A DNA stretch of 64,000 nucleotides from Diplonema papillatum (Eukaryota > Euglenozoa > Diplonemea > Diplonemida > Diplonemidae): positions 186,001-250,000 of the forward strand of contig JAPJBO010000255.1 of NCBI GenBank assembly GCA_030068145.1. Direction: 5' to 3'. How positions within the stretch are numbered: the first letter of the stretch is position 1; each line of letters opens with the position of its first letter. Shown in pieces: positions 1,621 to 63,092 of the stretch. The notes below the pieces were generated by a model, which was given only the letters and a program-made list of their open reading frames with translations, was not told the origin of the DNA and made no database searches. The translations under genes were made by a program, and so were the position numbers.

Positions 1621-1630
1621 GTATGTCTTT

Positions 1631-2258
1631 TCTCTTTGGTGTATTTTCTGCTGGTCTGCGATCGGCAAACAACCTCCGTCGCTCTGTCCGTCCCCGAAGG
1701 ATCCCACAGGACCCAGCATCAGCGCCGCAGGGAACCTAGAAACATCCGGAAAGTTCCGAAAACCCTGCTCAAGTTCCGAAGATCCTTTCTCTTTGGTGTA
1801 TTTTCTGCTGGTCTGCGATCGGCAAACAACCTCCGTCGCTCTGTCCGTTCCCGAAGGATCCCACAGGACCCAGCATCAGCGCCGCAGGGAACCTAGAAAC
1901 ATCCGGAAACTTCCGAAAACCCTGCTCAAGTTCCGAAGATCCTTTCTCTTTGGTGTATTTTCTGCTGGTCTGCGATCGGCAAACAACCTCCGTCGCTCTG
2001 TCCGTTCCCGAAGGATCCCACAGGACCCAGCATCAGCGCCGCAGGGAACCTAGAAACATCCGGAAAGTTCCGAAAACCCTGCTCAAGTTCCGAAGATCCT
2101 TTCTCTTTGGTGTATTTTCTGCTGGTCTGCGATCGGCAAACAACCTCCGTCGCTCTGTCCGTTCCCGAAGGATCCCACAGGACCCAGCATCAGCGCCGCA
2201 GGGAACCTAGAAACATCCGGAAAGTTCCGAAAACCCTACTCAAGTTCCGAAGATCCTT
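1631..2258 (+). repeat. Four tandem 157-bp repeats in the AIR9-like intron
   Basis: Four nearly identical 157-bp units start at 1631, 1788, 1945 and 2102, ten bases after the splice donor. Units differ by one or two bases (for example gaaag versus gaaac), so the amplification is recent. Because 157 is not a multiple of 3, each unit continues the apparent open frame of its neighbour; these frames are artefacts of the repetition. A dispersed fifth copy is at 9394-9534. Confidence 0.95.
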
Positions 2259-2452
2259 TTTTTTTCTTTCTGTACTTTATTGGTGGCTTGCCGTGGCTAC
2301 CCTTGAAGGAAAGCGGCTCCGGGTTCTGCCCGGAAACACCTCGGGTGAAGAAAAAAGAAGTGGTGGGATATCAGATCAGAAAAAGAGAGAACGAGTATAA
2401 GTATCAGCTAAGAGAAGCGTGAAGGGGGGTCCATCCCCGCTCTCATTCGAGT

Positions 2453-3145
2453 ATGGATGACGTCGACGCACTGATCGCCAGGGCATCCGCCTTGGCTGGG
2501 AAGTGCCATGACAAAAAGACGAGGCAGCAACTGCTGAAAATCTTAGACGTCATCCTGTCCTTGGTCGAGACAGGGATGGCCGGATCGTCGCCCGCACCGC
2601 TTGGCGCCCAGAAACCCGCGCCCCCTTCGACGCATGGCTCCGGGGCACAAGAGGCTCGACCTCCGGTATCCGAGAAGCGTTCGGTGTCCGATAAGCGACC
2701 GGTATCCGAGAAGCGACCGGACCCCTCCACCGAAGATTCATGGGCGGAAAGGATGCGCCGCTCTACATCGACGAAGCAACCGCAGGTGCCTAGCACGTGG
2801 TCGGAGAGGACGCGCCGCACCCGTCCGAAGGCCAGTATGGTCTTCCATGACTGGCAAGTGGCGAAGGTCGGGTCTACCGACGAGTTGAGGAGCGGAAAGG
2901 GCGGCCTACTCGTGGCTGCAAGTGTCGAAGATGCGGAATCCGCATGGGGTGCGGCCCTCGACACCGTCGCGGTTTACCCCGAAGCGAAGGTTGCCGTCGT
3001 CTGCAGCGTTCCGTGGGACGGTTCAGTGAGGCACCTCGTCACCTTGTCTGACGGCGGTCATCAGGACGTATGCCGACGACACAGGTTTGCCTGTTCCAGG
3101 TGCGCGCCGCCTACGTCCACGCGGCCACCTGGGATACCGCGATGA
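2453..3145 (+). CDS. LINE ORF1, N-terminal part
   Basis: The frame starts at ATG 2453. It encodes a helical N-terminus (MDDVDALIARASALAGK), a Ser/Pro/Arg-rich low-complexity segment containing a repeated SEKR motif (about residues 65-85), then a more ordered region. The plausible protein ends near 3050-3085, after VTLSDGG; beyond that the frame becomes low quality while the neighbouring frame starting at 3052 takes over. So ORF1 was probably one protein of roughly 570 residues broken by a small indel. No obvious slippery site is visible, so programmed frameshifting is less likely but not excluded. Confidence 0.65.
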   Translation: MDDVDALIARASALAGKCHDKKTRQQLLKILDVILSLVETGMAGSSPAPLGAQKPAPPSTHGSGAQEARPPVSEKRSVSDKRPVSEKRPDPSTEDSWAERMRRSTSTKQPQVPSTWSERTRRTRPKASMVFHDWQVAKVGSTDELRSGKGGLLVAASVEDAESAWGAALDTVAVYPEAKVAVVCSVPWDGSVRHLVTLSDGGHQDVCRRHRFACSRCAPPTSTRPPGIPR

Positions 3146-4194
3146 AGGCCGCACAATCTGTGCGGATTATGGCGAAGAAGGCCGCAGAAGCGGAAGGACT
3201 GCGCATGGATTGGAGCGCAGTGTTCACAAAGGTGCACCGCCGGCAGGGGGTGTGTGAGGTGAGCGTGCGCGTCCCGATCGTTGACGTGCAGAAGCTGCTG
3301 CGGAGCTCCGGCAAAGCCGGAACATTCTGGAAGGCCTTGTCCTTCGTCAACGGGACGGACACCATGCCGGCGGTGTGGGTGAGTGACTGCACCCTTGAAG
3401 AGGCGCGACGGCTGGCGGCACTGACTCCGAATACGTTCGGGGTAATCGCGGGCACAAAGACGGGTGTCTTCGGCATTCGGACGACCCCGGAACACGTTGC
3501 CGCCACCGAATCCGCGGTCGGAAAAAAGCTGTCGAAGCGCCAACTGCGTGGCGACAAATACGTGGTCACCACCGCGTGCGCTTCGGAACACGCGACCGAC
3601 CTCCTTGCCGCCTGCGCTGCTGCCGGCTGGAAGGTCGAACAAGCCGGGGCCTTCAAGCGACAAGGTAAGACCGTGTGCATCGTCATCGCCGACACGGGCC
3701 CACCTGCACCCGTGTTCTTCCGGCTCGATCGCGCGTCTATTTCGATAAGGAAATACGACCGCTCCACTGACGCGAGGCAACGGAAGGGATTCTCCACGCA
3801 GTGTCAGCGGGAGAAGGTCAAACTCCCACCCGAGTTCTTCGCTAGCCTCAACGAACGGCCCGAGCCGTCTCCGGGCCAAAAGAGGGGACGCACAGAGGAT
3901 GAGACAACTGAGTCCCAGGAAAAGCTAGCACGGGTGGACGGCAAGGACAACATGGTCACCGACTGCCGGCACACCAGCTGGCAGGAAGCACACTCGAACG
4001 CCGAAGCTTTCCTCTGCGTGGTCTGCGCCAAAGGCATGCAGGTCGGACAAGCCAAGCGGCTTTGCGCGCACGGCCCCTGCCAGGCTGCAATCTGTCACGC
4101 ATGCTGGACTAAGTCGCGGGCCACGCCGCCAACTTCATCTCCCTCGCCCGCGCAGGCGACCGCCGACGTCCCCCCCCCGGAGTCACAATGGTGA
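3052..4194 (+). CDS. LINE ORF1, C-terminal part with a Cys/His cluster
   Basis: Continues ORF1 in the next frame; the first in-frame ATG is at 3070. It encodes about 375 residues, largely alpha/beta, probably the nucleic-acid-binding ORF1 product of the retrotransposon particle (role inferred from its place upstream of ORF2). Near the C-terminus, Cys/His residues are spaced like a zinc-binding module: CRHTSW, then FLCVVCAKGM, then LCAHGPCQAAICHACW. The TGA stop overlaps the ORF2 start in the sequence ATGGTGA, implying coupled reinitiation or stop-start translation of ORF2. Confidence 0.7.
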   Translation, partial: RRSSGRMPTTQVCLFQVRAAYVHAATWDTAMKAAQSVRIMAKKAAEAEGLRMDWSAVFTKVHRRQGVCEVSVRVPIVDVQKLLRSSGKAGTFWKALSFVNGTDTMPAVWVSDCTLEEARRLAALTPNTFGVIAGTKTGVFGIRTTPEHVAATESAVGKKLSKRQLRGDKYVVTTACASEHATDLLAACAAAGWKVEQAGAFKRQGKTVCIVIADTGPPAPVFFRLDRASISIRKYDRSTDARQRKGFSTQCQREKVKLPPEFFASLNERPEPSPGQKRGRTEDETTESQEKLARVDGKDNMVTDCRHTSWQEAHSNAEAFLCVVCAKGMQVGQAKRLCAHGPCQAAICHACWTKSRATPPTSSPSPAQATADVPPPESQW

Positions 4195-7100
4195 TCCACG
4201 CCAACGATTTGTCCCCCCAGCCGACGAGAGAGTTCTATCTGGCCCTCGTAGCGTACGCGCTTCTCGTGACTCAAGGTATCGAACCCAACCCTGGCCCTCC
4301 ACCAATTCGAATTGTGACTATAAATGTCACGTCCTTGATGAAGAACCTGTACCTCCTCATCTGCATAGCGGCGGACATCATCTGTGTTCAAGAAACGAAG
4401 TTGACGAGTGCCGGGCAGAGAAGTATCCGGATGGCCCTGAAACAAGCCGGCGCCCTTGATGTATGGCAACCCTTCTTCGGCAGCTGCTGTGTTGGGCGGA
4501 AGTGCGGCAACAGCGTCCCATCCCAGGTTACAGGAGGTAGTGCAGGAGTCGCGATTTTCGTCAAGAAAGGCTTGCCTGCATGTATCGTCGAGCCTTTTGA
4601 CGCAGCCGAGCAACGTGCCTACGAATCGGCCCGCTTCTTGCATGTACGTGTCGCGACAGGTGTAGGTAAAGGAGCCGTACACGTGGTGTCATTGTACGGT
4701 CACTGTGGCATTTCCGAAAAACCCGAGCGGGAAAGGTTGATCGAGGGATCCCTGTGGGGATTGCGCCAGCGCTTGGGTGCTGTGCCCCTTGTCGCCGCCG
4801 GCGATTTCAACACGACCCCCCTCGGTTCCCCGGCGCTCCGATTCGCCTTGCGCAACGGCTGGTCGGACTCTGCCGAGCTGCAAGCTGAAGCCCTGGGAAG
4901 TCCTGCAGAGTTTACATGTTACCACGGTCAGCCGTCACGCATCGACCTTCTTCTCACCAACGAAGTCGCTTCTGCCGCTCTCGGTCGCGTGGAGACTTTC
5001 GAAGCCGGCCTCCCTACGCACAAGGCGGTCCGAGCCACCTTTAATCTTGCAGTATTCCAACAACTGAACCCGGTACTCCGGTACCCCCGGGCAATTCCAA
5101 GCACCGGGCTGAGCGGCCTGGACGACCCGAATGCCCTCCGGAACGTCTCTGAGAAGTACCGCCTCGGGGACCCTTGCCCCCCCGGGCTCGAAGGTAGCCC
5201 CCGGGTGAACTTCCTCTGGCAACGGACTTCGCGAGCTGCGGAAGAGTACCTCATCCTCAAATCCGGAATCGAAGGCAACCTAACCGGGTACTGTGGCCGT
5301 GGCGTACGTCGGGAATTGAACTCTCAGCGAGTATCGGCGAGGCCGTCCCCTGAAGGTGCGGGAGCCGATACAGCTTCTTTGAAGAGAGCCAGGTGTCTCC
5401 TTGGGCGCATACGGGAGTACGCAGCCGCCAGAGCCAAATGGGAAAGCACAATCGTCTCCCCTGGCCCTTTGCCCTTCCAGCTTGAGGGACAGTGGACGAA
5501 AATACGCTCCTTTCGAAGTTTCGTGTTGCTGCGCACGGATGGGAAGTGTGCTCTGCCACCCGAGCCGCCGTCAGCGAAAATCGGAAGAGGCCTCGCGTTT
5601 ACCGTCTCAGGACTGTGTCGTGACCTGGCGCATAGCACGCTAACTTCGAGATACCTGAAGAGCGCGAGGAGTCAGCGGGAGCTTCGCGACCCCCTGGGGA
5701 AGGAATCGTTCGCTTGGGTGAAGAAAGACGCGCCATCGGGGTTATCGTTTGTAACTGGGGCCGATGGGCGGCTCACTGCGAACTTGGCAGAAGTTGACGC
5801 GTTGGTGAGGAGGAGTTGGGATCCAGTGCTCCGCATGTACGCCGAGAAGAGGGAACCCGAGTTTGCCCCTTTCTTCCAGGAGTACAAAGACTTTATCACG
5901 CAACACCCATGCAATCTAAATCCGATCACGGCCGAGCGGCTTCGTCAGGTGGCGAAAAAGAAGAGCGTACAGACGTCTTGCGGTGTAGACGGCTGGCGCA
6001 TGCGTGAAATCGCCGTTCTGCCGAATGCAATCCTGGAAAGCTTTGTCGCGGTGCTCAACGAGGTAGAGGAAACCGGCTTCTGGCCCGACGGAGTCCTGGA
6101 CGCAATGGTCACCTTAATTCCTAAAGGAGAAGGGAGTGATCCACTGAAGCTGCGTCCGATTACTGTCTCGAGCGTGGTATACCGACTCTGGGCTAGCGTG
6201 CGCCTACAGGATGTCATGCTCTGGCAAGAGCTATGGATTCACGGGTCGCAACATGGTTTCCGGCACGGCCACTCCTGCGACGACGTGGTCAGTGGTCCTG
6301 ATCAACGCGCTCCTCTCTGTACTCTCGAAAGCCTTGGTCAGCCGAGCTCGGGTGAGTCCGAAGTCGTTCGCCGACGATCTGTACCTGCTGTCGCAACTTG
6401 CGAGGCTATTCCAAGAGGGAATTCGAACCACAGAGGTGTTCGACAGCCTGACAGGCTTTGCCCTCAACGAGGACAAGTCGGTCTCCTTCTCGACGTCCCC
6501 GGTCGCAAAATAATTCGATCGAGCAAAATTGTGAAGGTTTTGGGTGTCCCCCTGGGCACAGAGGGACCCGTTGACAACCGCAGGGCCAACGCCACGGTCG
6601 AGGCCGCGGCCAGACTTGAGGCGGCGCCGCTCATGCATCGCACGAAGTTCCGCATAAAGCAGACGATCGCAGCCTCCGCGTATTACGGGGCGGCCTACTG
6701 CACGAATACAACAGGTGGCTTCGTCAACAGCTCAACGCTCCGAACGGCACTCTCCGCTTGCGTGATCCCTCGATCTAACCGGGCGAAGAGCCCTCTTGCG
6801 GTTCTCTCCCTGGTTGCAAAAGCACACCTGTGTGATCCGGCATGCGCCTCAGGTTTCAGCTTATTCCGCACGTTCGTGAAACAATACGGGAAAGAGAGGT
6901 TTCGGGTGAGGATGGACGCTCTCCTTCGCGTGGGAGCCGACTCGTCTATCAAGGGTCCCGTAGGTCTTATGGCTAATCTTCTGCGGGAGATAAGATTCCT
7001 ACGGGCCACGCAGCACAGCTTCCAGTCCCTGTCTTTCGACGGGACTCCCGTGTCGCTACTCGGTAAAGAAGCCCCACACCTCTTTCGTGAGGGCCTGCGT

Positions 7101-12720: not shown

Positions 12721-14100
12721 CTGGGCATGGGCTTCGCCTGGCTGCTTCTCCTGAAATTCTTTTTCGGAAGGGAGGCCTTGCGCGCACGCGAAGTGTCAAG
12801 CTTTTGCCTTTTCAACTCGTCTTGATCGTCGCGTTCAGGCACGCAGCCTGAGCTAAACTGTGATCGACAGCAGCAGGCAATTCGATGCACTTCCCAGGAA
12901 ATAGCGGCCTGGCTGACTGCGGTTAAGTGGAGACGAGGGTGTGTTCCTGATGGCAACGACCAGTGTCGATCGACGTCGCATCACAAATGTAGTTGGGAAA
13001 ACACGTTCCCCTTCCCGCGTTCTGCGTGTGGGGTTGCCACCGGCAGCCGCAGATACGTCCTTCGCCCTTGGCTCACTCTCGGGAGGTGTCGCTGCTCACC
13101 TACCAGTGTGTTCCTGGTTGTTGCCCTAATTTGTTGCACTAATGTGATTGGCAGGCCTTCGAATACCCTGAGCAACGCACTATGCAAGGTAGTTATGATC
13201 ACGAACTTTAACTACTCATAAAAAGGCGAACTTGCACTCTAAAAAGGTCTTTCGCTCTGTTCTGAGGGTCACGGACACTTTGCGAAGTCGGAGTTTCAAA
13301 CGAGCATTTCTCTCTGTGAAATGCCGGCCCTTTCAACGAATGCACTCAGTGTGCACGAAGGGAGAGGCCCTACTTTAACCCCCGACTATGAAAGACGAAG
13401 TATCGTAGATTTTTTGTTCTTTGCTGTTCTTTCCCCTCCCCGCCCCACCCTTCTACCCCTTTTTTGCTTCAGTTGTCAAGACTTTAGAAGATTTTCTGAA
13501 GCTCGTGCAAGTCCACGTTCGGTTCTTCTGTTCTTCCTTGTCTGTTCTTCCTTGTCCACCCCCCACCCGCCCCCATTTTTTCCTTCACCCCCCCTTCTGT
13601 CTGTTACGTCCAATCCGTCGCATTCGTCTGTGTAAAGGAAAAATTAATCTACAATTCTAGGGGGGGAGGGGGTGCTGTACAGTCTTGATTTTTTTTCGGC
13701 GTCCGGGGGCCGGCCGGTGCAAGGCCGTTTTCAGGCTTCCTGGCCGAAGAATCCCTGGCACCCTGCGGAGAGCCACTCTCACCCACCATGGCTACCCAGG
13801 GCATCATGCGTGTAGGCAGTTGGGTGAGGTAACTCACCGAAAAACAAAAAAAAGGAGAAGTGAAAAAAAAGATGTGAGCCAACTTCTCTGAAGGGAATGG
13901 CCTTTAGAAGCCTTGATGTGAGCCGACTTCTCTGAAGGAACCGAAAAATCGAATGGTCAACAGTATGAGCTCGGTGTCTATTCTTAACGGAAAAACTGGT
14001 TGCAAAGAAGGTGTCCTGCCAGCAGAAAGAGTTACAGCAACCATTTTCGGCTAGGAAGAAGTATACACGATCCGAGAAACGGCATCGAAATATTTTCTTG
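12721..14100. other. Intergenic, no gene recognised
   Basis: Includes a family J repeat (13124-13187; ttcgaataccctgagcaacgcact; another copy at 55768-55830 and an inverted one at 36468-36523) and pyrimidine-rich, low-complexity sequence at 13420-13620. No coding similarity was seen. Confidence 0.45.
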
Positions 14101-18300: not shown

Positions 18301-18510
18301 CCCCCCCCCCCCCTCTTGGCCGCACGGCATAGTTTGCCGCGCACGGCACGGTTTTTCACCTGACCCACTGGTACTACCAGGTAGACTGAGATAGAGCGCG
18401 CCGCAGGCGCGAAATTTTTTTTGAGGCGTTTTGGGCTCAGAAAGACCAAAAGGAGCACAGGAAAGTACATCACACTGGTGCAAAAAAGAAGAAGGAAGAC
18501 AGGATTCAGA

Positions 18511-18946
18511 GGTTGTCCCACTTCAAAAACAAGGTTTTAGAAATTGTCCCACTTCGAAAACCAACTTTTAGAGGTTGTCCCACCTCGAAAACAGGCTTTT
18601 AGAGGTTGTCCCACCTCGAAAGCAAGCTTTTAGAGGTTGTCCCACTTCGAAAACAAACGTTTAGAGGTTGTCCCACCTCGAAAACAGGCTTTTAGAGGTT
18701 GTCCCACCTCGAAAACAAGCTTTTAGAGGTTGTCCCACCTCGAAAACAAACTTTTAGAGGTTGTCCCACCTCGAAAACAAACTTTTAGAGGTTGTCCCAC
18801 CTCGAAAACAAGCTTTTAGAGGTTGTCCCACCTCGAAAACAAACTTTTAGAGGTTGTCCCACCTCGAAAACAGGCTTTTAGAGGTTGTCCCACTTCGAAA
18901 ACAAGCTTTTAGAGGTTGTCCCACTTCGAAAACAAGCTTTTAGAGG
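18511..18946 (+). repeat. 31-bp satellite array 1, about 14 copies
   Basis: The unit reads ttagaggttgtcccac, then (t/c)tcgaaaaca and ag(c)tt. Copies near the left edge are more diverged (gttttagaaattgtcc). The array is split from the main array by the module at 18947. Confidence 0.97.
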
Positions 18947-21122: not shown

Positions 21123-21296
21123 AAAAAGAAAGAGGAAGGTGAGACTGACATTCTTTGCTCCTGCTGGGTTTGGGCTTTTCTTGCTGCCAGAGTGACTAGT
21201 AGTAACCCCCGCCTCCTCCCAAACTCTTCTGGTGTTGGTTTGGGTAGGTGCTCCTCCTGCCATGCGCTTTGCTCCAATTCCCACGGTAAACCATAG
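21123..21296. repeat. 588-bp module, copy 2, right part
   Basis: 174 bp identical or nearly so to 19361-19534 (one difference seen, gcttttg versus gcttttc), completing the interrupted second module before the satellite resumes. Confidence 0.9.
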
Positions 21297-24200
21297 TTGT
21301 CCCACTTCGAAAACAAGCTTTTAGAGGTTGTCCCACTTCGAAAACAAGCTTTTAGAGGTTGTCCCACCTCGAAAGCAAGCTTTTAGAGGTTGTCCCACTT
21401 CGAAAACAAGCTTTTAGAGGTTGTCCCACTTCGAAAACAAGCTTTTAGAGGTTGTCCCACTTCGAAAACAAGCTTTTAGAGGTTGTCCCACTTCGAAAAC
21501 AAGCTTTTAGAGGTTGTCCCACTTCGAAAACAAGCTTTTAGAGGTTGTCCCACCTCGAAAACAAGCTTTTAGAGGTTGTCCCACTTCGAAAACAAACTTT
21601 TAGAGGTTGTCCCACCTCGAAAACAAGCTTTTAGAGGTTGTCCCACTTCGAAAACAAACTTTTAGAGGTTGTCCCACTTCGAAAACAAACTTTTAGAGGT
21701 TGTCCCACTTCGAAAACAGGCTTTTAGAGGTTGTCCCACTCGAAAACAAGCTTTTAGAGGTTGTCCCACTTCGAAAACAAGCTTTTAGAGGTTGTCCCAC
21801 CTCGAAAACAAGCTTTTAGAGGTTGTCCCACTTCGAAAACAAGCTTTTAGAGGTTGTCCCACCTCGAAAACAAGCTTTTAGAGGTTGTCCCACCTCGAAA
21901 ACAAGCTTTTAGAGGTTGTCCCACTTCGAAAACAAGCTTTTAGAGGTTGTCCCACTTCGAAAACAAGCTTTTAGAGGTTGTCCCACTTCGAAAACAAGCT
22001 TTTAGAGGTTGTCCCACTTCGAAAACAAGCTTTTAGAGGTTGTCCCACCTCGAAAACAAGCTTTTAGAGGTTGTCCCACTTCGAAAACAAGCTTTTAGAG
22101 GTTGTCCCACTTCGAAAACAACTTTTAGAGGTTGTCCCACCTCGAAAACAAGCTTTTAGAGGTTGTCCCACTTCGAAAACAAGCTTTTAGAGGTTGTCCC
22201 ACCTCGAAAACAAGCTTTTAGAGGTTGTCCCACCTCGAAAACAAGCTTTTAGAGGTTGTCCCACCTCGAAAAAGCTTTTAGAGCTTTTAGAGGTTGTCCC
22301 ACTTCGAAAACAAACTTTTAGAGGTTGTCCCACTTCGAAAACAAACTTTTAGAGGTTGTCCCACCTCGAAAACAAGCTTTTAGAGGTTGTCCCACTTCGA
22401 AAACAAGCTTTTAGAGGTTGTCCCACTTCGAAAACAAACTTTTAGAGGTTGTCCCACTTCGAAAACAAGCTTTTAGAGGTTGTCCCACCTCGAAAACAAG
22501 CTTTTAGAGGTTGTCCCACTTCGAAAACAAGCTTTTAGAGGTTGTCCCACTTCGAAAACAAGCTTTTAGAGGTTGTCCCACCTCGAAAACAAGCTTTTAG
22601 AGGTTGTCCCACTTCGAAAACAAACTTTTAGAGGTTGTCCCACCTCGAAAACAAGCTTTTAGAGGTTGTCCCACTTCGAAAACAAGCTTTTAGAGGTTGT
22701 CCCACTTCGAAAACAAACTTTTAGAGGTTGTCCCACTTCGAAAACAAACTTTTAGAGGTTGTCCCACTTCGAAAACAAGCTTTTAGAGGTTGTCCCACCT
22801 CGAAAACAAACTTTTAGAGGTTGTCCCACCTCGAAAACAAGCTTTTAGAGGTTGTCCCACTTCGAAAACAAGCTTTTAGAGGTTGTCCCACTTCGAAAAC
22901 AAACTTTTAGAGGTTGTCCCACTTCGAAAACAAGCTTTTAGAGGTTGTCCCACCTCGAAAACAAGCTTTTAGAGGTTGTCCCACTTCGAAAACAAGCTTT
23001 TAGAGGTTGTCCCACTTCGAAAACAAGCTTTTAGAGGTTGTCCCACTTCGAAAACAAGCTTTTAGAGGTTGTCCCACCTCGAAAACAAGCTTTTAGAGGT
23101 TGTCCCACTTCGAAAACAAGCTTTTAGAGGTTGTCCCACTTCGAAAACAAACTTTTAGAGGTTGTCCCACCTCGAAAACAAGCTTTTAGAGGTTGTCCCA
23201 CTTCGAAAACAAGCTTTTAGAGGTTGTCCCACTTCGAAAACAAGCTTTTAGAGGTTGTCCCACTTCGAAAACAAACTTTTAGAGGTTGTCCCACTTCGAA
23301 AACAAACTTTTAGAGGTTGTCCCACTTCGAAAACAAGCTTTTAGAGGTTGTCCCACCTCGAAAACAAGCTTTTAGAGGTTGTCCCACTTCGAAAACAAGC
23401 TTTTAGAGGTTGTCCCACTTCGAAAACAAGCTTTTAGAGGTTGTCCCACTTCGAAAACAAACTTTTAGAGGTTGTCCCACCTCGAAAACAAGCTTTTAGA
23501 GGTTGTCCCACTTCGAAAACAAACTTTTAGAGGTTGTCCCACCTCGAAAACAAACTTTTAGAGGTTGTCCCACTTCGAAAACAAGCTTTTAGAGGTTGTC
23601 CCACTTCGAAAACAAGCTTTTAGAGGTTGTCCCACCTCGAAAACAAGCTTTTAGAGGTTGTCCCACCTCGAAAACAAGCTTTTAGAGGTTGTCCCACCTC
23701 GAAAACAAGCTTTTAGAGGTTGTCCCACCTCGAAAACAAGCTTTTAGAGGTTGTCCCACTTCGAAAACAAGCTTTTAGAGGTTGTCCCACTTCGAAAACA
23801 AGCTTTTAGAGGTTGTCCCACTTCGAAAACAAGCTTTTAGAGGTTGTCCCACTTCGAAAACAAACTTTTAGAGGTTGTCCCACTTCGAAAACAAGCTTTT
23901 AGAGGTTGTCCCACCTCGAAAACAAGCTTTTAGAGGTTGTCCCACTTCGAAAACAAACTTTTAGAGGTTGTCCCACCTCGAAAACAAGCTTTTAGAGGTT
24001 GTCCCACTTCGAAAACAAGCTTTTAGAGGTTGTCCCACCTCGAAAACAAGCTTTTAGAGGTTGTCCCACTTCGAAAACAAACTTTTAGAGGTTGTCCCAC
24101 CTCGAAAACAAGCTTTTAGAGGTTGTCCCACCTCGAAAACAAGCTTTTAGAGGTTGTCCCACTTCGAAAACAAGCTTTTAGAGGTTGTCCCACTTCGAAA

Positions 24201-24957
24201 ACAAGCTTTTAGAGGTTGTCCCACTTCGAAAACAAGCTTTTAGAGGTTGTCCCACTTCGAAAACAAACTTTTAGAGGTTGTCCCACCTCGAAAACAAGCT
24301 TTTAGAGGTTGTCCCACTTCGAAAACAAACTTTTAGAGGTTGTCCCACCTCGAAAACAAGCTTTTAGAGGTTGTCCCACTTCGAAAACAAACTTTTAGAG
24401 GTTGTCCCACCTCGAAAACAAGCTTTTAGAGGTTGTCCCACTTCGAAAACAAACTTTTAGAGGTTGTCCCACTTCGAAAACAAACTTTTAGAGGTTGTCC
24501 CACTTCGAAAACAAGCTTTTAGAGGTTGTCCCACCTCGAAAACAAGCTTTTAGAGGTTGTCCCACTTCGAAAACAAACTTTTAGAGGTTGTCCCACCACG
24601 AAAACAAGCTTTTAGAGGTTGTCCCACTTCGAAAACAGGCTTTTAGAGGTTGTCCCACTTCGAAAACAAGCTTTTAGAGGTTGTCCCACCTCGAAAAAAA
24701 GCTTTTAGAGGTTGTCCCACCTCGAAAGCAAGCTTTTAGAGGTTGTCCCACTTCGAAAACAAGCTTTTAGAGGTTGTCCCACTTCGAAAACAAACTTTTA
24801 GAGGTTGTCCCACCTCGAAAACAAGCTTTTAGAGGTTGTCCCACTTCAAAAACAAACTTTTAGAGGTTGTCCCACTTCGAAAACAGGCTTTTAGAGGTTG
24901 TCCCACCTCGAAAACAAACTTTCAGAGGTTGTCCCACTTCGAAAACAAACTTCGATG
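21297..24957 (+). repeat. 31-bp satellite array 2, about 118 copies
   Basis: Near-perfect head-to-tail units. Most variation sits at two sites: cac(t/c)tcg and aa(gc/ac)tttt. Rare variants are acagg, a shortened unit near 21740 and a rearranged one near 22270. No spacers. The array ends at aacttcgatgaacc. Confidence 0.98.
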
Positions 24958-25561: not shown

Positions 25562-26225
25562 TTTGATTTGATTTCATCCTGGACTTTGGGGGTTCCTACT
25601 TTGTTTCTCCTCGCCTCCTGACGATTCGCGGCTATTCCAGGCGTTGCCTCATCGTACCAGTACGTGAAGCTATGTTTCCCCCCTTTTATCAGCAGCATAG
25701 CAACACTCTGCGTGTGCAGGTGTGCTATGCATCCAATTACGGCACACCTCCAAGTTGAGCTTCGCAGAAAATTGCGGCCCGGGAATGTCGGCATGTCCAG
25801 CCCTACGAATTGCCAATTCCACGTGCAAGTTCGAAGTTTTGTCCGAGCTCAATAACTACTGAAGTATGCAGGTCGTCCCATGGGAAACGGCTCTAGGAAA
25901 CAAGTGTTAGCACGTTGCACCAACTACCAAACTAAGGTTCGTAGAAAATGGTTGGTGGGTTGCCACATCTTTTTTAAGGTTGTCCCGTCAAGGAAACAAA
26001 GATTTGCAGGTTGTCCCATCTCGAAAAACAATGGTTGAAGGTTGCCCCACCTCGAACGATTAGGTTTGCAGCGTGCCCCACCTCGGATAGTGAGTGTCCC
26101 ACCGCAGCAAATTCTTCGCCGGCCACCTACTCCCGCATGGGGAGAAAAAGGGGTCTCCACGCCAGTCAGCAGAGGAATCCTGGTGTGTATTTGTTATGCC
26201 CTACGTATAAAGCTTGTATTCGCGG
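25562..26225. other. Satellite gap with decayed + oriented units
   Basis: No gene. From about 25965 to 26105 there are diverged satellite units still in the + orientation (aggttgtcccatctcgaaaa, then gttgccccacctcga). The orientation switch therefore lies between 26105 and 26226. Confidence 0.6.
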
Positions 26226-27290
26226 TGGGACAACCTCTAAAAGTTTGTTTTCGAGGTGGGACAACCTCTAAAAGTTTGTTTTCGAGGTGGGACAACCTCT
26301 AAAAGCTTGCTTTCGAGGTGGGACAACCTCTAAAAGCTTGTTTTCGAGGTGGGACAACCTCTAAAAGTTTGTTTTCGAGGTGGGACAACCTCTAAAGTTT
26401 GTTTTCGAAGTGGGACAACCTCTAAAAGCTTGTTTTCGAGGTGGGACAACCTCTAAAAGTTTGTTTTCGAAGTGGGACAACCTCTAAAAGCTTGTTTTCG
26501 AAGTGGGACAACCTCTAAAAGCTTGTTTTCGTGGTGGGACAACCTCTAAAAGCTTGTTTTCGAGGTGGGACAACCTCTAAAAGTTTGTTTTCGAAGTGGG
26601 ACAACCTCTAAAAGCTTGTTTTCGAGGTGGGACAACCTCTAAAAGCTTGTTTTCGAGGTGGGACAACCTCTAAAAGCTTGTTTTCGAGGTGGGACAACCT
26701 CTAAAAGCTTGTTTTCGAAGTGGGACAACCTCTAAAAGCTTGTTTTCGAGGTGGGACAACCTCTAAAAGCTTGTTTTCGAGGTGGGACAACCTCTAAAAG
26801 CTTGTTTTCGAAGTGGGACAACCTCTAAAAGCTTGTTTTCGAGGTGGGACAACCTCTAAAAGCTTGTTTTCGAGGTGGGACAACCTCTAAAAGTTTGTTT
26901 TCGAAGTGGGACAACCTCTAAAAGCTTGTTTTCGAAGTGGGACAACCTCTAAAAGCTTGTTTTCGTGGTGGGACAACCTCTAAAAGCTTGTTTTCGAGGT
27001 GGGACAACCTCTAAAAGCTTGTTTTCGAAGTGGGACAACCTCTAAAAGTTTGTTTTCGAGGTGGGACAACCTCTAAAAGCTTGCTTTCGAGGTGGGACAA
27101 CCTCTTAAAGCTTGTTTTCGAGGTGGGACAACCTCTTAAAGCTTGCTTTCGAGGTGGGACAACCTCTAAAAGTTTGTTTTCGAGGTGGGACAACCTCTAA
27201 AAGTTTGTTTTCGAGGTGGGAGAACCTCTAAAGGTTTGTTTTCGAAGTGGGACAACCTCTAAAACCTTGTTTTCGAGATGGGACAACCTC
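26226..27290 (-). repeat. 31-bp satellite array 3, inverted, about 34 copies
   Basis: The same unit as arrays 1 and 2 but reverse-complemented (gtgggacaacctctaaaagc). Diverged units back in the + orientation reappear at 27345-27430. Confidence 0.97.
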
Positions 27291-27535
27291 TAAATCCTAC
27301 CTATCCAATGTTGGGACGTTGTTACCGCACGTCCAAGGCCAAGGTTCGGAGGTTGTCCCCACTGAAAAACAGACGTATGCAGGTTGTCCGGCTTCAAAAG
27401 TGTTCGCTTGGAGGCCCCCCCGCCTCAAACAGGCTACGTGGTTGTGACGAAGACGCACTATAGAGAGCGACACGCCAGGCCCGACCCACAGTACAGTGAA
27501 TGTTTACCGACCCCCCCCCCCCCTTTTCTGAAAAA

Positions 27536-42292: not shown

Positions 42293-42934
<642 letters not shown>

Positions 42935-46130: not shown

Positions 46131-46165
46131 TATGCATGAGTAAAGGGGGGGTCGAATACTGACAG
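46131..46165 (+). repeat. Transposon left outer inverted repeat
   Basis: Pairs with 50542-50572 at about 80% identity with one 3-base gap. Confidence 0.75.
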
Positions 46166-46292
46166 TTATTTGACATGCGTCCGGCTGTTCGAAAACAATG
46201 CCATTCTTTGACCCTGCTACTGTTCGACACATCATGCCACCCCCGGAATCATTTTTTGGTATTCGACAAATCGAATTATATCACAGGTGTTG

Positions 46293-46318
46293 TGAGCCAA
46301 TTCACCTAGCCCCCCTGA
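46293..46318 (+). repeat. Transposon left inner inverted repeat
   Basis: tgagccaattcaccta plus a C-run and tga; pairs with 50518-50541, differing by one or two bases. Confidence 0.85.
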
Positions 46319-46330
46319 AAATGACTTTAG

Positions 46331-46400
46331 CTCGATTACGCGTCGATTACACTCGATTACACTCGATTACGCTCGATTACGCTCGATTACACTCGATCAA
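46331..46400 (+). repeat. Left subterminal 10-bp array
   Basis: About seven ctcgattac(a/g) units. The array is followed by cgatcaacttttgggtgaat, a diverged direct copy of the right-end junction. It may be the binding site for a transposon protein. Confidence 0.85.
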
Positions 46401-46571
46401 CTTTTGGGTGAATTGGGGGGGTACTGCAGTAATTGATTAACGGCGTAACACTCAGGCAATCTTGATTGGTCGGTTCAACGTACCCACTAACGCACCTTCT
46501 TCCGGGGCTAAAAAGGTGCTGATGACAGGATATTGAAATCGGAATAAAAACAAGAATATTAGTCTGAAAAA

Positions 46572-48746
46572 ATGCCCGAGACAGGCCGTGCAGCTGGAGA
46601 CCAGGAAGTTCGGGCTGACTTGCGGAAGCAGGTTGTCGAGTGCATACGGGCTCGGGTACCAGTATCTCGCATTAGCTCGCATATATTCAATTTAGCGCAG
46701 CTAGTACTTGGGCCTTTCGGCATTCCGTGCGGGCCAGTTCCAGGCGATAGGGCTGTTCGCCGAGCGCTTGGTAGGCACCTTGTCCTCGGTGACATGGAGT
46801 TTCTGCTCCGGCTTGGGGGTGGTGACTTCGTCATTGCCGGGGATGCAGGAGAGCTTCCGGGGAGCAAGGATATCCTCTGCCTGACGTTCTCGTACCTGGA
46901 CACGATGGAGCAGAGGTGGAGGACGCGGCTTGTGCTTGCAGCACTTGTGCGGCAGAAGGATCCAGCAACGACGACGAAGTATCTCCAGTACGTGCTGGAC
47001 TACTTTCAGAAGCTGCAAGAGTCGCTCCTTGCCTTGGGGTTCGATCTCCCTGGCGATGCACTGCTCCCAAGGATGAAGAAGGTTGTTACAGACAGAGGCC
47101 TCTTCACGACGGCTAGTGAGTTGTACGCCTGTGGGGCCGTCGACGAGGTCATCATGGAGCCCGTGCATCGCCTGCACCTTGCTGACAAAGCCGTCCAAAA
47201 ATGTCTGGCGACCGACCTTCCTTTGCGATCACTCATTCCATTGGCGTATGATTTCATCGCAGGAAACGATGCCTTCCACCACTGGCTGGAAGAAAACGCT
47301 GGCGTGAGCCCAGCAGGCGTGTTTTGGGCACCAGTCAAAGCCGGTCGGTTTTCAACACTGACGGCCGGAGCTTACAGCCTTTCAGAAGAGATTCGGGGAA
47401 AACCTCTTGCCGAGTGGGCGCGGCTTTATCTTTCCACGCGGCAAGTCCTGCTGTACGCGTCCAGCCCAATAGCAAAGAAGCGTGTGCCAAACCGGTTCCT
47501 CAAGCTGTATGAGGCCCTCGTGGGCACGTCGTTCCTTCCGAAGCTCCGCGTCCTCCGCTTGCTGTTCACGTCGCTCTGCTATCCTCTGACGCACTTGCTT
47601 TGGCATCTTGACCAGCTCGGCACCGTCAAGGAGGCGTGGTGCAGCATCCTGTGTTGCCTCTGCAAGAATGTGGGTGACCACGATCTTCAGAAATTGGTCG
47701 TGCAGGGCAAGAAGGACTGGTTCGGATGCGTCGTCCCGTTGCAGATCCGAGTGGTGGAAACCGCATCCAAGTCGAAGCTGAAGTTCGGTGTTGTGGAACT
47801 CGAAGATGTTTTCCTTGTCGAGGACAAGCCTGGTGCAAAGCTATCTGGATACGCAGCAGCTTTAAAAGACGCCCTCGCTCCCCATCGACAGTCCGACATA
47901 CCCCAAGAAATTGAGTGTACTGCAGTCTCCGAGGAAGCCGAAGTTCTGGTTGGGCACGTAATGAAATACGTGCGGCATTTCAAGCGCCTAGAATTCGACA
48001 AGTACATCAACATGTCGAATGCAGCCAACGCACCCCCGAACTGCAATCCGAATTTAACGGAAACCCCTGTAGGTGTGGTGAAGCAGACTGTTGAAGACTG
48101 CAAGAACCAGACTGTCACCGATGAGGTACTCAGGGGTATAGCTGTTATTCGAGGAGGAAACGAACCTGAGATCAGCGAGTGGCTGCTTCGGGACTGCGCC
48201 GTTTCGACTCTTTGTGATACGGTGTACCGTTCATGGGAAAACTGCATTGAAAGGTCCCACCGCCTGGCAGACGAGTTCGAAGCACACACCCAGCGAAAAC
48301 AGAATCTTGCTGATGAAAGCCAGCGCAAGCGCGATGCAAGGGAAGAGATCGCGAAGACACGCTTGGAGGCAATCGAGCAGTTGACCCCGAAGGAGATTGC
48401 TGAAAACGGCACTCGCGCATGCGTATTGAGTCAAAGCATGAAGCGACGCCTTCCCAAAAAGGGCAAAATGAGCGACCTTCTCGAAGCCATCATCGCCTTC
48501 GACAAGTCCGACTTCAAGCTGCCGACTACCTACGGCAAGGTCGGGCGAAAGCGTCCGGAGAAGCCCGGGGGAAAGCACTCTGTGAAACGTCGGAAAAAGA
48601 ACCCTACGGTTAAGGCTGGGAAATCATCGAACAAGTCAGGCAGTAGTACCTCGTCCAATGGGTCCGACAATTCCGACGAGTCCGACAATTCTGACGAGTC
48701 CGACGAGTCCGACAGCGCCGACGATTCGTCAAGCGCTGACTCCTGA
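46572..48746 (+). CDS. Transposon ORF A, 724-aa protein of unknown family
   Basis: A single long frame from ATG 46572 to TGA with good codon structure and no internal break. Residues 1-560 look globular and largely helical, with no transposase signature I can name with confidence. A charged helical stretch follows (about 565-615: EAHTQRKQNLADESQRKRDA), then a bipartite-looking basic cluster (RKRPEKPGG, VKRRKKNP; about 656-678) that would act as a nuclear signal, then a Ser/Asp/Glu tail built on repeated SDNSDES-type units. Its size and place make it the best candidate for the transposase or a replication protein of the element (inference). A host gene captured by the element cannot be excluded. 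Confidence 0.7.
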   Translation: MPETGRAAGDQEVRADLRKQVVECIRARVPVSRISSHIFNLAQLVLGPFGIPCGPVPGDRAVRRALGRHLVLGDMEFLLRLGGGDFVIAGDAGELPGSKDILCLTFSYLDTMEQRWRTRLVLAALVRQKDPATTTKYLQYVLDYFQKLQESLLALGFDLPGDALLPRMKKVVTDRGLFTTASELYACGAVDEVIMEPVHRLHLADKAVQKCLATDLPLRSLIPLAYDFIAGNDAFHHWLEENAGVSPAGVFWAPVKAGRFSTLTAGAYSLSEEIRGKPLAEWARLYLSTRQVLLYASSPIAKKRVPNRFLKLYEALVGTSFLPKLRVLRLLFTSLCYPLTHLLWHLDQLGTVKEAWCSILCCLCKNVGDHDLQKLVVQGKKDWFGCVVPLQIRVVETASKSKLKFGVVELEDVFLVEDKPGAKLSGYAAALKDALAPHRQSDIPQEIECTAVSEEAEVLVGHVMKYVRHFKRLEFDKYINMSNAANAPPNCNPNLTETPVGVVKQTVEDCKNQTVTDEVLRGIAVIRGGNEPEISEWLLRDCAVSTLCDTVYRSWENCIERSHRLADEFEAHTQRKQNLADESQRKRDAREEIAKTRLEAIEQLTPKEIAENGTRACVLSQSMKRRLPKKGKMSDLLEAIIAFDKSDFKLPTTYGKVGRKRPEKPGGKHSVKRRKKNPTVKAGKSSNKSGSSTSSNGSDNSDESDNSDESDESDSADDSSSADS

Positions 48747-49075
48747 TTAACCATGGGTCACTTTAGCTTCTCGTTCCTCTGCTCAAGTAATTTTGTTTGC
48801 GGTCAGCAGGCTCATTTTCATTCAGACGACGTCCTCATTCTTGCTGCTCTTACATAAACCATCTGGCCTGTACGGACTCTACGAAAACGCATGCCGTCAT
48901 ATGTTTGTCCCATCTCTCTTGCGTTCTTGTCGTTCTCTATCAGTGGCTGTCGTGCATTCGATGCCTTGTCTCGAATGTTGTGTGCGTTCAAGCGTGTGAT
49001 CTGGTTGTGCTTCGCTTCGTGCTGCATTGATAATCTTTCATTGTGAACTTTATTGCAGGGGGTTTGAATTCTAAG

Positions 49076-50101
49076 ATGCCGCGCGAGAATGAGATCAGCT
49101 TCACCATGAAGGTGATTTGGGGGGAGCGCACAAAAAAGCTCCTTACCAAAAAGGACCGAACAGCGGCCGCAGAGGCCGTTTTGTACGTTGAGCAGGGGGG
49201 TGACGACCTTGCGCAGTACGTCAAAAAGGCACGAGACGCAGCGGTGCCGATCGCGCGAAGGGAGGGCTTTACTGTCTCCCTAGCCCCCACCGCCGTTCGG
49301 TACACGCTGCCGAAATCCGCCGCGCGCCTCGACGACGATGACACCGGCATCCGCGAGGTCGTTGGGCCGGCGGACTTGTTCGCAGCAGCCAGAGCGGACG
49401 CACGACAGCTTATTGTCGTGCTGGACGCAACCGAGAAGCGGGCGGCAGGCAAGCAAGCGAACACAGCGGCCCAGCTAGCCGCTAAGTTAACCGGCGCCGA
49501 CCTGCAACCGGCCTTCAAGGTCGGTAAAGGCATCTCGCCCACCGTATCTTGCGTGGGATGCTCAAAGGTGGTGTTCGTCGCCAAGGAGGGGGACAAGGAC
49601 AAGCTCAGGCTAGCCCCCTACGAAGCCCACATAAGCGGCTGTGAAAAGGGCGCCGCTCTGCTGGAGAAGACCGCGGTGGCTGCGGTCGAGAAGAAGCGAG
49701 GGTCTCATTTGCAAGACTCTCGAGTTGGGGCTCAAGCGCGACGAGAGGAAGAAAGGCGAGCCGCTGCCGCGAAAGAGGATCTGTCCAGCTACAGATCTCT
49801 TTTCGACATCTGGAAGAAGCCGAAGCCGACGAAGCCTGCAGGCACGAGCACAGCCGAAGACAGGGCCTCGGAGCTACCGGATGCTGACCCGCCGGGGGAG
49901 CTACCGGATGCTGACCCGCCGGTGGAGCTACCGGATGCTGACCCGCCGGTGGAGCAACCGGATGCTGACCAGCCGGTGGAGCTACCGGATGCTGACCAGC
50001 CGGTGGAGCTACCGGATGCTGACCCGCCAGGGACTGTCCTGGTGAAGAGGAAGGCAGAGGAGTGCCAAGAGCCGAGGAAGAAGCTCGTCTTTCTGCTGTA
50101 G
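49076..50101 (+). CDS. Transposon ORF B, 341-aa protein with BED-like zinc-binding pattern
   Basis: Starts at ATG 49076 (MPRENEISFTMKVIWGER); the frame is open upstream to an intron-like ttattgcag at 49049-49057, so a spliced leader exon is possible. The N-terminal half is helical and basic. Around residues 157-185 it has C-V-G-C, about 23 residues, then H-I-S-G-C: the C-x2-C-xn-H-x3-C spacing of BED-type and related zinc fingers common in transposon DNA-binding proteins. Six perfect-length 9-residue repeats (ELPDADPPV; 49871-50032) precede a basic C-terminus (VKRKAEECQEPRKKL). A role in binding the subterminal 10-bp arrays is a reasonable guess, by analogy with the two-protein Spm system. 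Confidence 0.65.
   Translation: MPRENEISFTMKVIWGERTKKLLTKKDRTAAAEAVLYVEQGGDDLAQYVKKARDAAVPIARREGFTVSLAPTAVRYTLPKSAARLDDDDTGIREVVGPADLFAAARADARQLIVVLDATEKRAAGKQANTAAQLAAKLTGADLQPAFKVGKGISPTVSCVGCSKVVFVAKEGDKDKLRLAPYEAHISGCEKGAALLEKTAVAAVEKKRGSHLQDSRVGAQARREEERRAAAAKEDLSSYRSLFDIWKKPKPTKPAGTSTAEDRASELPDADPPGELPDADPPVELPDADPPVEQPDADQPVELPDADQPVELPDADPPGTVLVKRKAEECQEPRKKLVFLL
49871..50032 (+). repeat. In-frame 27-bp minisatellite in ORF B
   Basis: Six 27-bp units (gagctaccggatgctgaccc plus gccggtg) encode 9-residue Pro/Asp repeats with only E/Q, P/Q and V/G changes. The frame is kept throughout. Confidence 0.95.
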
Positions 50102-50404
50102 TGCTGCAACGCAAGGTGCGGATTTCGTGTGCTTTCGAGCGGCCTAGCGCTTCTTCTTTTTTCATCATCGTTCATCATCCCGTCTTGCTAGGCTGCTCAC
50201 AGTCGCTCGAAGATCTTTGTCCCTTTTCGCCACCAACTCGCCTGCAGTCCCCGAAAGCTTCCGGTCTCATATGCACATCGCCCACTTGCCTGCGGTTTCC
50301 GTCCCTCGTATGCTTATGCTTGGCACTTCTGGGGCCAGACAGTGGTCAACATGGTCGCCCATGGGCCAGTCAGGGGTCCACCAGTGGTCGAACCCAAAAT
50401 ACTA

Positions 50405-50520
50405 GTGTCAATCTCGATCACACTCTACAACGCTCTACTACACTCTACTACACTCTATTACGCTCGATTACGCTCGATTACACTCGATTACGCTCGATTA
50501 CGCTCGATTACACTCGATCA
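50405..50520 (+). repeat. Right subterminal 10-bp array
   Basis: About eleven units, from degenerate ctctactacact at the left to clean ctcgattacg near the end. Same orientation as the left array. Confidence 0.85.
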
Positions 50521-50541
50521 GGGGGTAGGTGAATTGGCTCA
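50518..50541 (-). repeat. Transposon right inner inverted repeat
   Basis: Reverse complement of the left inner repeat at 46293. Confidence 0.85.
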
Positions 50542-50572
50542 TGTTGATATTCGACCCGCCCCTTCATGCATA
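50542..50572 (-). repeat. Transposon right outer inverted repeat
   Basis: Pairs with 46131-46165. Immediately beyond it a perfect 9-bp inverted repeat (aatatttgc, tt, gcaaatatt) spans 50572-50591. Confidence 0.75.
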
Positions 50573-61238: not shown

Positions 61239-63092
61239 GATTTGACGGCATACAGAGAGCCGACCTGGAGCGGACGAACTCCTTCTGGAGGATGCGTGAA
61301 TGTCCCGCGCACACCGCGAGGCTTATACGCGTAGCGTTGGCGGGGGGGTGAACACGGCTGAGTACACGTCGCGGATGAGGCAGGCCGGAGCTGAGCCGCA
61401 GGCGCCCAGCTGCAAGCACTGTGGAAGCGGCGACACCGAGGACGAGAAACACGTTTTCTGGGACTGCGGAGCGTACTCGCACATACGGCGACGAGAGGCA
61501 CATGCCGAGCTGATGGCAGCCAACCGGGCCGACTGGCCCAGATGCACGCTGGAACACGGTGTGGTAGTACCCGAGAATGCCCAATTCTCGAGGCGGCTCC
61601 AGGAGATGATGGCTGAAATCCTTGCGGAACGGGCTGGGCTCGAAGCACGTGGCTGGGTGGCCAGGAACCCCACGACCCCCTGGTCGAGAGCGAATGCGAT
61701 GCCTGCCGAGAAATTTGACCACCCCTTCGCGCGGATTGCCCCGGCATGGACGTGGGAACGGAACAAGACCTGGGGACTACCGACGTTTTATGCGTTGGTA
61801 GCGTGGCTGTCGGACATGCAATGGACCGAGAACGGGCAGGCGTCAATGCTGGAGCTTGCGATCGACTTTGAACTCTTCTCGGGCCTCAGCATGCCGCTGC
61901 ACGGGAATGCGCCGAAGGGGGTGAGAGAACGGGGAAACGTCCTGCGCTGCATGATGAGCGCGTTGGACAAGCTGGCGGCACAGCAAGGGCTGGGAAGCTG
62001 CATGAGAGGAGAGAGGGTGTGCCCGACGACGTCGCTGTCGTTCATGGGCATCACGGGGATATCGGGTATACGGCCCAGGCCACGCTTTCGCGAGGCACAC
62101 ACGGGGACGATACTTGAGGAACAAGTGAAAGGAAGCGATGTAGGGACGCAGTGCCCGACGTACCCTGACTGGACGATCGGGAGAGCGGCGAGGTGGGCCC
62201 TGCCTGCCCCACCACAACTGCACCCAGACCCCGTGCATATGCCGGGTGTCGGTATAGAGAAGGCACTCGTCACGTGCGCGACCCATCACAAAGGGAAGTG
62301 TGAGGCGTGCAGAGCACTCGTCCGAAGGGACGTTCCCACGGTAGAGATGTGCTGCCGGCACCATCACCACGCGAACGATGGGCAGCCGATCGCGGTGTGC
62401 ACAGAGCACAGCACGACGAAGTGCGGCGAGTGCAAGACGGCGGCGGCGTGTTGCCGCAGCGGGCATCATGCCTGCCGCACGCATGGCAGAGGAACCTGCC
62501 AAGAATGCAGGAGGCTCCCTACGTTGACGCAGAGGAGACCGGCAGCGTGCTGCCGCCGCGGCCACCACCAACCCAACGAACCGAACGCCCCGGCAACCCC
62601 CGGACACAGCAAAAAGAAGAAGAGACCCCTCTCACCCACCCAGGTGGGCGTACAACGAGAAACGCCGGCGGGAAAGCGCGCGGCGCAGGCGCCGCCCGCC
62701 GTAGCGAAGCAGAAGACGGCGACGACCGGACGGGCAGCCAAGAGGCCGCCACCAACGCCAGGGACCGGCGAACGACCAGCGTTGAAAAAGAGGGTGCTCG
62801 GCACCCCGAAGGAGAGCCCGATCGCCGGCCGCAAGCGGAAGAAGGCGAAGGCGACCACACCCGAGTCAGGGGTGCAACGAAGAAAGAGGAAGGCCCTTAA
62901 AGCAAGCAGCTACCAGAAACGTTCGACGTCTCCAAGCACTCCAGTGCCCTCGAGAGTGAAAAACGTGCAAGCCTGTCCGCACCTGTGCCCCTCCACGCAA
63001 TCTCCAGAACCGCAAGAAAGCCCAGCGCCCCTGGCGCCACAAGTATTCGACCTTGACGACGCAATGACAGGTGACGACGTCATAAAGTAACC
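61239..63092 (+). mobile_element. 5'-truncated LINE copy
   Basis: Carries only the part of ORF2 downstream of the reverse transcriptase and ends two bases after its stop codon, like the tail at 28.1 kb. A frame change near 61300 separates an upstream scrap (ERTNSFWRMRECPAHTARLI) from the long frame. It is flanked by direct repeats. Confidence 0.75.
61300..63090 (+). pseudogene. LINE ORF2 C-terminal region with a tandem Cys/His domain
   Basis: A 596-residue frame. The cluster CKHCGSGDTEDEKHVFWDC (about 38-56) is the CCHC block that follows the reverse transcriptase, equivalent to 7299-7358 of the other LINE. A region around WLSDMQ...LELAIDFELF also resembles that LINE's ELALDFEAF segment, so the two are relatives. 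Residues about 325-425 hold three repeats of C-x2-H-x4-C-x2-C followed by C-C-R and two or more His, a pattern I do not recognise and which the first LINE lacks. The last 160 residues are Lys/Arg/Pro-rich with several nuclear-signal-like clusters and end in an acidic DLDDAMTGDDVIK. The endonuclease and polymerase are missing, so this copy is not autonomous. Confidence 0.75.

Follow-up and report, generated by a model that had tools for sequence, protein, structure and literature searches.

A recently active two-gene DNA transposon of Diplonema papillatum and a retrotransposon that inserts into its terminal arrays

To what kind of mobile element, if any, do two unfamiliar genes framed by inverted repeats belong? 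The question is raised by a 64,000-nucleotide stretch of the Diplonema papillatum genome (contig JAPJBO010000255.1, positions 186,001 to 250,000; 'the window' below), in which the original prediction placed a new two-gene DNA transposon with composite inverted ends at positions 46131-50572. Comparison with the host assembly (271,365,524 bases, 2,910 contigs) supports a recently active, multi-copy, two-gene DNA transposon with unmatched proteins, and moves its borders inward to 46293-50541. We read this segment as an autonomous-looking cut-and-paste DNA transposon of the terminal-inverted-repeat (TIR) type, with a probability of about 0.72, because of its TGAGCC repeats, its 5-bp target duplications, empty sites with a single duplication, near-identical copies and a second family built alike.

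Gene 1 of the element occurs at at least 42 full or near-full places in the host genome, window included (protein-1 search; at least 692 of 724 residues), and at at least 25 of these the protein is identical, with the top score. This count, like those given below for the older repeat, gene 2, the family-2 relatives, the gene-2-like fragments, the array-junction query and the L027 and L017 joins, is a lower bound from the best candidates scored. Forty of the 41 other copies were fetched with their flanks (C91 was left out, and L048 is cut at a contig end), giving 41 loci with the window, which we cite by L-numbers where they must be told apart. The segment 46293-50541 aligns end to end at 100% over 4,249 bp with 8 of the 40 fetched copies; such identity in loci with different flanks indicates very recent movement, as the intact frames had led the original prediction to expect. 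The inner inverted pair (46293-46313/50521-50541) is 95% complementary, the 16-mer TGAGCCAATTCACCTA is exact at both ends, and the ends start with TGAGCC rather than with the predicted TATGCATGA. In 20 of the 41 loci the element could be followed to both its ends, TGAGCCAATTCACC and GGTGAATTGGCTCA; the others are interrupted, truncated or at contig ends. The flanks printed beyond these ends vary by locus. Exact 5-bp duplications lie beside 16 of these 20 copies, or 16 of the 19 that have at least 6 bp of right flank. A few copies are not independent, as one flank is common to L021/L025, to L038/L042/L043, to L014/L048 and to L031/L035. Many copies appear by eye to lie within AT-rich tandem repeats (flanks of L009, L015, L016, L018, L028, L030, L031, L035, L038, L039 and L042-L044), settings that might suggest a preference of target or of survival.

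Empty target sites were sought as the two flanks of a copy joined with one duplication, a match having at most 5 differences in 30. Within the fetched flanks, such matches were found for 5 of 15 copies (L009, L015, L028, L045 and L016, the last a weak match with 4 differences), and control joins keeping both duplications matched for 0 of the 15. Searched against the whole genome, the L027 join matched over all 200 bases at 40 of 40 scored places, printed as 100%, a score that allows about 1 difference; for the L017 join, 38 of 40 rows cross the junction at 95-100% over ~100 bases, extending at least 19 bases past it, and the remaining 2 are that copy's own flanks. Further copies with identical ends and empty sites, proposed with the prediction as its check, are thus both present. 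Neither observation named as able to refute it was made: many places share the inner ends, and the genes, far from being ordinary single-copy host genes, are multi-copy and occur together, with gene 2 (at least 294 of 341 residues) beside gene 1 on the same contig in 40 of 42 copies and only partial at C765 and C851.

The composite ends divide into two parts of different origin. While the inner pair belongs to the element, the outer pair (46131-46165/50542-50572) is real sequence of an older ~165-bp repeat, resembling a miniature inverted-repeat transposable element (MITE), that has been split; the window copy is nested in this repeat, which produces the apparent second, outer inverted pair. 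The outer pair was rejected as a part of the element on these grounds, since fetched copies of the repeat span the junction: alignments to those at L053 and L054 pass through the insertion site of the window element, and at L052 one unit ends at the junction and a second crosses it by a few bases. With the first 200 bases as query, 40 candidates were scored and 43 rows obtained; the window's own row stands at 100%, all the others at 77-88%. The high-copy repeat has ends AAAGGGGGGGTCGAATA (window 46142-46292 and 50542-50564; L052-L054).

TIR ends are also found well beyond the coding copies. The 16-mer has 1,015 exact genome occurrences (527 and 488 by strand), and its reversed control has 0. 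Among 100 listed places, 46 make 23 inverted pairs less than 15 kb apart and 54 are unpaired by that rule. Four of the 23 pairs span exactly 2,214 bp, which is too short to hold both genes, and both of the two such elements that were checked carry 5-bp duplications (GTTAC and CATCA). Because ends far outnumber the coding copies' share, and because of the duplications at these two short elements, non-autonomous derivatives probably move as well, in trans. Queries taken from the subterminal DNA drew so many full copies that they were uninformative on short derivatives.

Protein-1 relatives at 42-46% identity, in about 10 further copies and in fragments, represent a second family, whose gene 1 is 46% identical to that of the first and which has TGAGCC ends, 5-bp duplications and 10-bp arrays in common with it. 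Exact duplications flank both family-2 copies in which the two ends were read, CACTA at L050 (element 1346-4312, TIR TGAGCCGGTCCACCCC, 16/16) and TATAT at L051. Gene 1 of L050 is split over two frames, and no gene-2 match appears on its contig among the matches listed; L049, in which both genes are open, is the one family-2 copy read that keeps both. Between the families, codon positions 1, 2 and 3 of gene 1 are identical at 0.55, 0.66 and 0.34 (700 aligned codons), a pattern that is, on sequence comparison, one of coding constraint. Family-2 gene 2 is 28% identical and keeps C159, C162, H185 and C189. Degraded fragments of gene-2-like sequence, with 46-49% identity to the protein of family 2, lie at G000:C680:53859-54398, C1097:29693-30073 and C42:323378-323587, apparently traces of a third family; no gene 1 adjoins the C680 fragment, the only one of the three that was fetched. 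A gene-2 fragment on C7 belongs to family 2, and the open reading frame adjoining it looks tyrosine-recombinase-like by eye.

What might the two proteins do? Both frames in the window are open, as predicted. In the family alignment, the conserved blocks of protein 1 are residues 85-110 (DFVIAGDAGELPG...LCLTFSYLD), 167-175 (RMKKVVTDR) and 190-205 (VDEVIMEPVHRLHLAD), and D91 (GDA), D174 (VVTDR) and E196xxH199 are invariant between the families. By inspection, and unscored, these blocks resemble the strand order and the D...D...[C/D]xxH arrangement found in hAT and other transposases of the RNase H type. Protein 1 may thus have a DDE-type fold, and D91 and D174 could, with low-to-moderate confidence, be two of its catalytic residues. 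Gene 2 encodes 341 amino acids from its ATG, and its mechanical open reading frame starts at a GTG at 49043. An acceptor-like TTTATTGCAG was noted by eye at window 49049-49058, ending 17 bases before the ATG, and an exon further upstream might be spliced to gene 2. At window 49870-50028, gene 2 contains a 27-bp tandem repeat encoding ELPDADPPV; open frames of 346, 351 and 355 amino acids in different copies suggest that the number of these repeats varies. A scan on a few short peptide patterns found no viral-contig match for either protein and, for protein 1, no relative in phages or prokaryote genomes. Coordinates are collected in Table 1.

Table 1. Positions of the transposon, its parts and associated repeats (window coordinates unless a locus is named)
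Feature	Position	Strand	Remarks
Complete transposon	46293..50541	+	4,249 bp; identical copies, 5-bp duplications, empty sites
Left TIR, TGAGCCAATTCACCTA	46293..46308	+	gapped similarity on to ~46318
Right TIR	50526..50541	-	similarity on to ~50518
Target-site duplication TGTTG, left copy	46288..46292	.	exact 5-bp match to right copy
Target-site duplication TGTTG, right copy	50542..50546	.	exact 5-bp match to left copy
Left subterminal array, 10-bp unit CTCGATTAC(A/G)	46331..46397	+	same strand as right array
Right subterminal array, unit CTCGATTAC(A/G), direct	50413..50518	+	retrotransposon-interrupted in other copies
Inverted internal copy of part of TIR, GGTGAATTGG, just inside left array	46407..46416	+	10/10 letters
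Gene 1, 724 aa, candidate transposase	46572..48746	+	putative DDE/RNase H-type core, residues ~85-205, by inspection only
Gene 2, 341 aa, candidate DNA-binding partner, CxxC...HxxxC	49076..50101	+	C159, C162, H185, C189 conserved
Older MITE-like repeat, left part (insertion target outside transposon)	46142..46292	+	genome rows, fetched copies
Older MITE-like repeat, right part	50542..50564	+	inverted pair, fetched copies
Retrotransposon 3'-end relic in family 2	L049:4173-4284, L050:3917-4019, L051:3605-3707		same orientation relative to gene 1

The predicted 10-bp subterminal arrays stand beside both inner ends, and both families have them at both ends of the element. The unit, CTCGATTAC(A/G) in family 1 and TCTATCACAG in family 2, differs between the families and agrees between the two ends of one element. 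The arrays are direct rather than mirrored: exact forward units number 5 and 5 at the two ends of the window copy and 18 and 7 at those of L050, with 0 reverse units in either. An array 20-mer has 209 exact genome places, and its control has 0. The inverted TIR part just inside the left array was matched at 10/10 letters in 0 of 2,000 shuffles of a 64-bp stretch, and over the full 14 letters the match is 10/14 (p 0.03); in family 2 the corresponding values are 8/10 (p 0.09) and 9/14 (p 0.22), neither significant, so that a conserved role of this copy is not supported.

In 21 of the 41 loci read, an array is interrupted. The left array is affected in 7 of 39 readable loci (L014, L022, L027, L031, L036, L037 and L044) and the right in 15 of 39 (L013, L019, L021, L024, L025, L029, L032, L033, L036, L038, L040, L042, L043, L046 and L047), with L036 counted under both; L021 and L025 probably represent a single locus, and L042 and L043 may do so too. 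The 3' junction was read nine times, at all seven left insertions and, on the right, at L033 and L036. Each time it shows one and the same retrotransposon end, ...TTCTAATCCA, which leads into CGATTAC in 8 of 9 and into CTATTAC at L033. The inserts differ at their 5' ends, share a constant 3' end and, where they overlap one another, all have one orientation. Where the site is cleanly readable, the insert entered the array unit at CT^CGATTA; L033 and L038 carry additional bases at their 5' junctions, L013 and L040 are ambiguous, and the array of L047 is a variant. The interruption adds a net 559 bp at L027 (left), 86 bp at L036 (right) and 766 bp at L033 (right). The insert of L013 codes for a reverse transcriptase (RVT_1, E 1.4e-20), and a 69-base query of the retrotransposon 3' end plus array, which itself fixes the orientation, returned at least 42 genome rows at 97-100%. 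Reverse transcriptase, 5' truncation, fixed orientation and a mostly constant insertion point identify the insert as a site-specific retrotransposon lacking long terminal repeats (non-LTR). As far as identified, the interrupted arrays hold one such element; the inserts of L013 and L021/L025 have, within the parts read, no overlap with the rest and are assigned to the same family by their open frames only.

The retrotransposon has also left its mark on family 2. A 103-112-bp relic of its 3' end lies beside the left array in 3 of 3 loci read, at 79-80% identity (E 7.6e-25 to 5.8e-20). Because the target duplications of L050 and L051 differ, the relic was most simply carried by transposition, and retrotransposon DNA appears to be part of the DNA transposon's end by now, moved along with it. 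In Xenopus, the Tx1L retrotransposon inserts into the Tx1D transposon, and the two systems are alike in that a non-LTR retrotransposon occupies a fixed site within a DNA transposon; unlike in that pair, insertion here is into 10-bp tandem arrays at the two ends, and family 2 has incorporated a relic. Non-LTR retrotransposons that target transposons are known, and transposons are listed among the targets of long interspersed nuclear elements in PMC4640811, so the array-targeting element adds a new example, unusual in its target, to a known kind. Elsewhere in the window, 62275-62616 (+) is similar to the Cys/His-rich C-terminal region of the retrotransposon (41% over 98 residues), and 12777-12846 (-) resembles the end of its coding sequence on the 3' side (81% across 21 residues); these are probably relatives of the retrotransposon outside arrays.

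Several observations weigh against an autonomous cut-and-paste transposon moved by its own proteins. First, no transposase profile matches protein 1 in Pfam searches of the whole protein and of fragments (best E 0.014, an unrelated family below the cut-off), all Pfam hits of the two proteins and of their relatives are likewise under their curated cut-offs, and sequence searches of the PDB gave no relative of protein 1 (best E 0.34) and no significant match for protein 2, in line with the earlier remark that neither protein shows a known transposase motif. Second, the structure prediction that had been proposed alongside these searches was poor: AlphaFold models reached a pLDDT (predicted local distance difference test score) of 35.2 for protein 1 with its family-2 relative and of 36.7 for residues 60-310, from an input alignment of two sequences, and were too poor for a fold search. 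Third, catalysis by protein 1 is a proposal with two candidate acidic residues and no third, binding of the arrays by protein 2 is conjectured from four conserved residues, and gene 2 shows weak coding constraint (0.39, 0.49 and 0.35 at codon positions 1, 2 and 3; 284 codons). Finally, 4 of the 20 copies with both ends lack a matching duplication (L018, with only 4 bp of right flank available, L030, L035 and L039), all four in flanks that look satellite-like by eye, and 10 of 15 copies have no empty site in the small set of fetched flanks.

Of the marks of class II elements, TIRs at both ends, a duplication of fixed length and empty sites with a single duplication are found here; for a DDE-type or other known transposase, profile and PDB searches gave no match. 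The general kind of the element is known, its proteins are unclassified, and it possibly represents a new superfamily; we make no such claim because the evidence comes from two families in one genome and lacks a fold. In searches of the open-licence literature, no listed title or shown abstract describes the element. The most far-reaching interpretation, to our minds a little more doubtful than even, combines a new superfamily of eukaryotic DNA transposons, defined by two relative-less proteins, TGAGCC ends, 5-bp duplications and direct helical-turn arrays, with a dedicated non-LTR lineage that is specialised on the arrays in two families, spares host genes and rides along with the moving transposon.

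We consider it unlikely that the element is instead a highly diverged, hAT5-like hAT transposon whose zinc finger was split off as protein 2. The ends of hAT transposons are of the CA/TA type, whereas those here are TG..CA (TGAGCC); in addition there are two proteins, with the putative zinc finger on a separate one, and direct arrays, and no hAT profile is among the Pfam hits to E 10 in either family, although HMMER filters drop most weak matches. Pointing the other way, the spacings of D91, D174 and E196xxH199 recall, by inspection and unscored, the D...D...ExxH layout of hAT, and the cut-and-paste plan is alike. The hAT duplication is 8 bp, or 5 bp in hAT5, and the element has 5 bp; hAT5 families with 5-bp duplications are described in PMC12730594.

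Alternatively, proteins 1 and 2 could be cargo, an unrelated transposase encoded elsewhere moving all TGAGCC-ended elements. The 1,015 exact ends far exceed what 42 coding copies explain, protein 1 has no transposase profile match, and PMC12477816 reports Ectocarpus elements without transposase homology that are presumed to move in trans. Two families, however, keep relatives of the same two genes together with like ends, arrays and 5-bp duplications, and protein 1 appears to be under coding constraint, which together make a cargo role distinctly improbable.

An integrase-type (Ginger2/TDD-like) DNA transposon is very improbable. It would account for the TG..CA termini and the 5-bp duplications, which PMC2836005 gives for TDD-4 and TDD-5 of Dictyostelium; the same paper describes Ginger termini as TGTNR and, in the table rows available, TIR lengths of 45-297, whereas the ends here are TGAGC with a TIR of ~16-26 bp, two proteins are encoded and no Gypsy-like or other integrase profile is among the Pfam hits, so that Ginger2 membership was rejected. 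Membership in CACTA/EnSpm, the group whose two-protein architecture the original prediction had found similar, fails in the same way, as no CACTA-type profile is among the Pfam hits. CACTA/EnSpm elements have two proteins and subterminal repeat arrays, as here, but they have CACTA/CACTG ends and 2-3-bp duplications in place of TGAGCC and 5 bp. Kyakuja-Dileera-Zisupton (KDZ) elements, a group of DNA transposons prominent in an alga (1.8% of Ectocarpus in PMC12477816), make 7- or 8-bp duplications according to PMC12730594, and KDZ membership was rejected given the 5-bp duplication and the lack of a KDZ transposase among the Pfam hits. An ordinary multicopy host gene pair in segmental duplications, suggested by the copy number and by the few loci that share a flank, is refuted by the differing flanks, the duplications and the empty sites and is hardly credible.

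If the cut-and-paste transposon is taken as the working model, protein 1 would be the transposase, cutting at TGAGCC and joining the ends to the target with a 5-bp stagger between its strands. Protein 2, through its CxxC...HxxxC finger, or else part of protein 1, could bind the 10-bp arrays, whose unit near one helical turn would place binding sites on one face of the DNA; because the arrays are direct and not mirrored, the two ends would be unequal. Short copies would be moved in trans. More broadly, a recently amplified two-protein transposon whose enzyme is missed by profiles is a good test case for transposases that escape annotation, and since copies of the element are intact, excision is directly assayable. 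The retrotransposon landing in the terminal arrays is a second-order parasite.

The window also holds other repeats. Arrays of a 31-bp satellite, with up to 118 units, occupy 18508-18946, 21296-24952 and 26209-27294, the last in the opposite orientation, and a (CA)n microsatellite of 281 units lies at 42294-42853.

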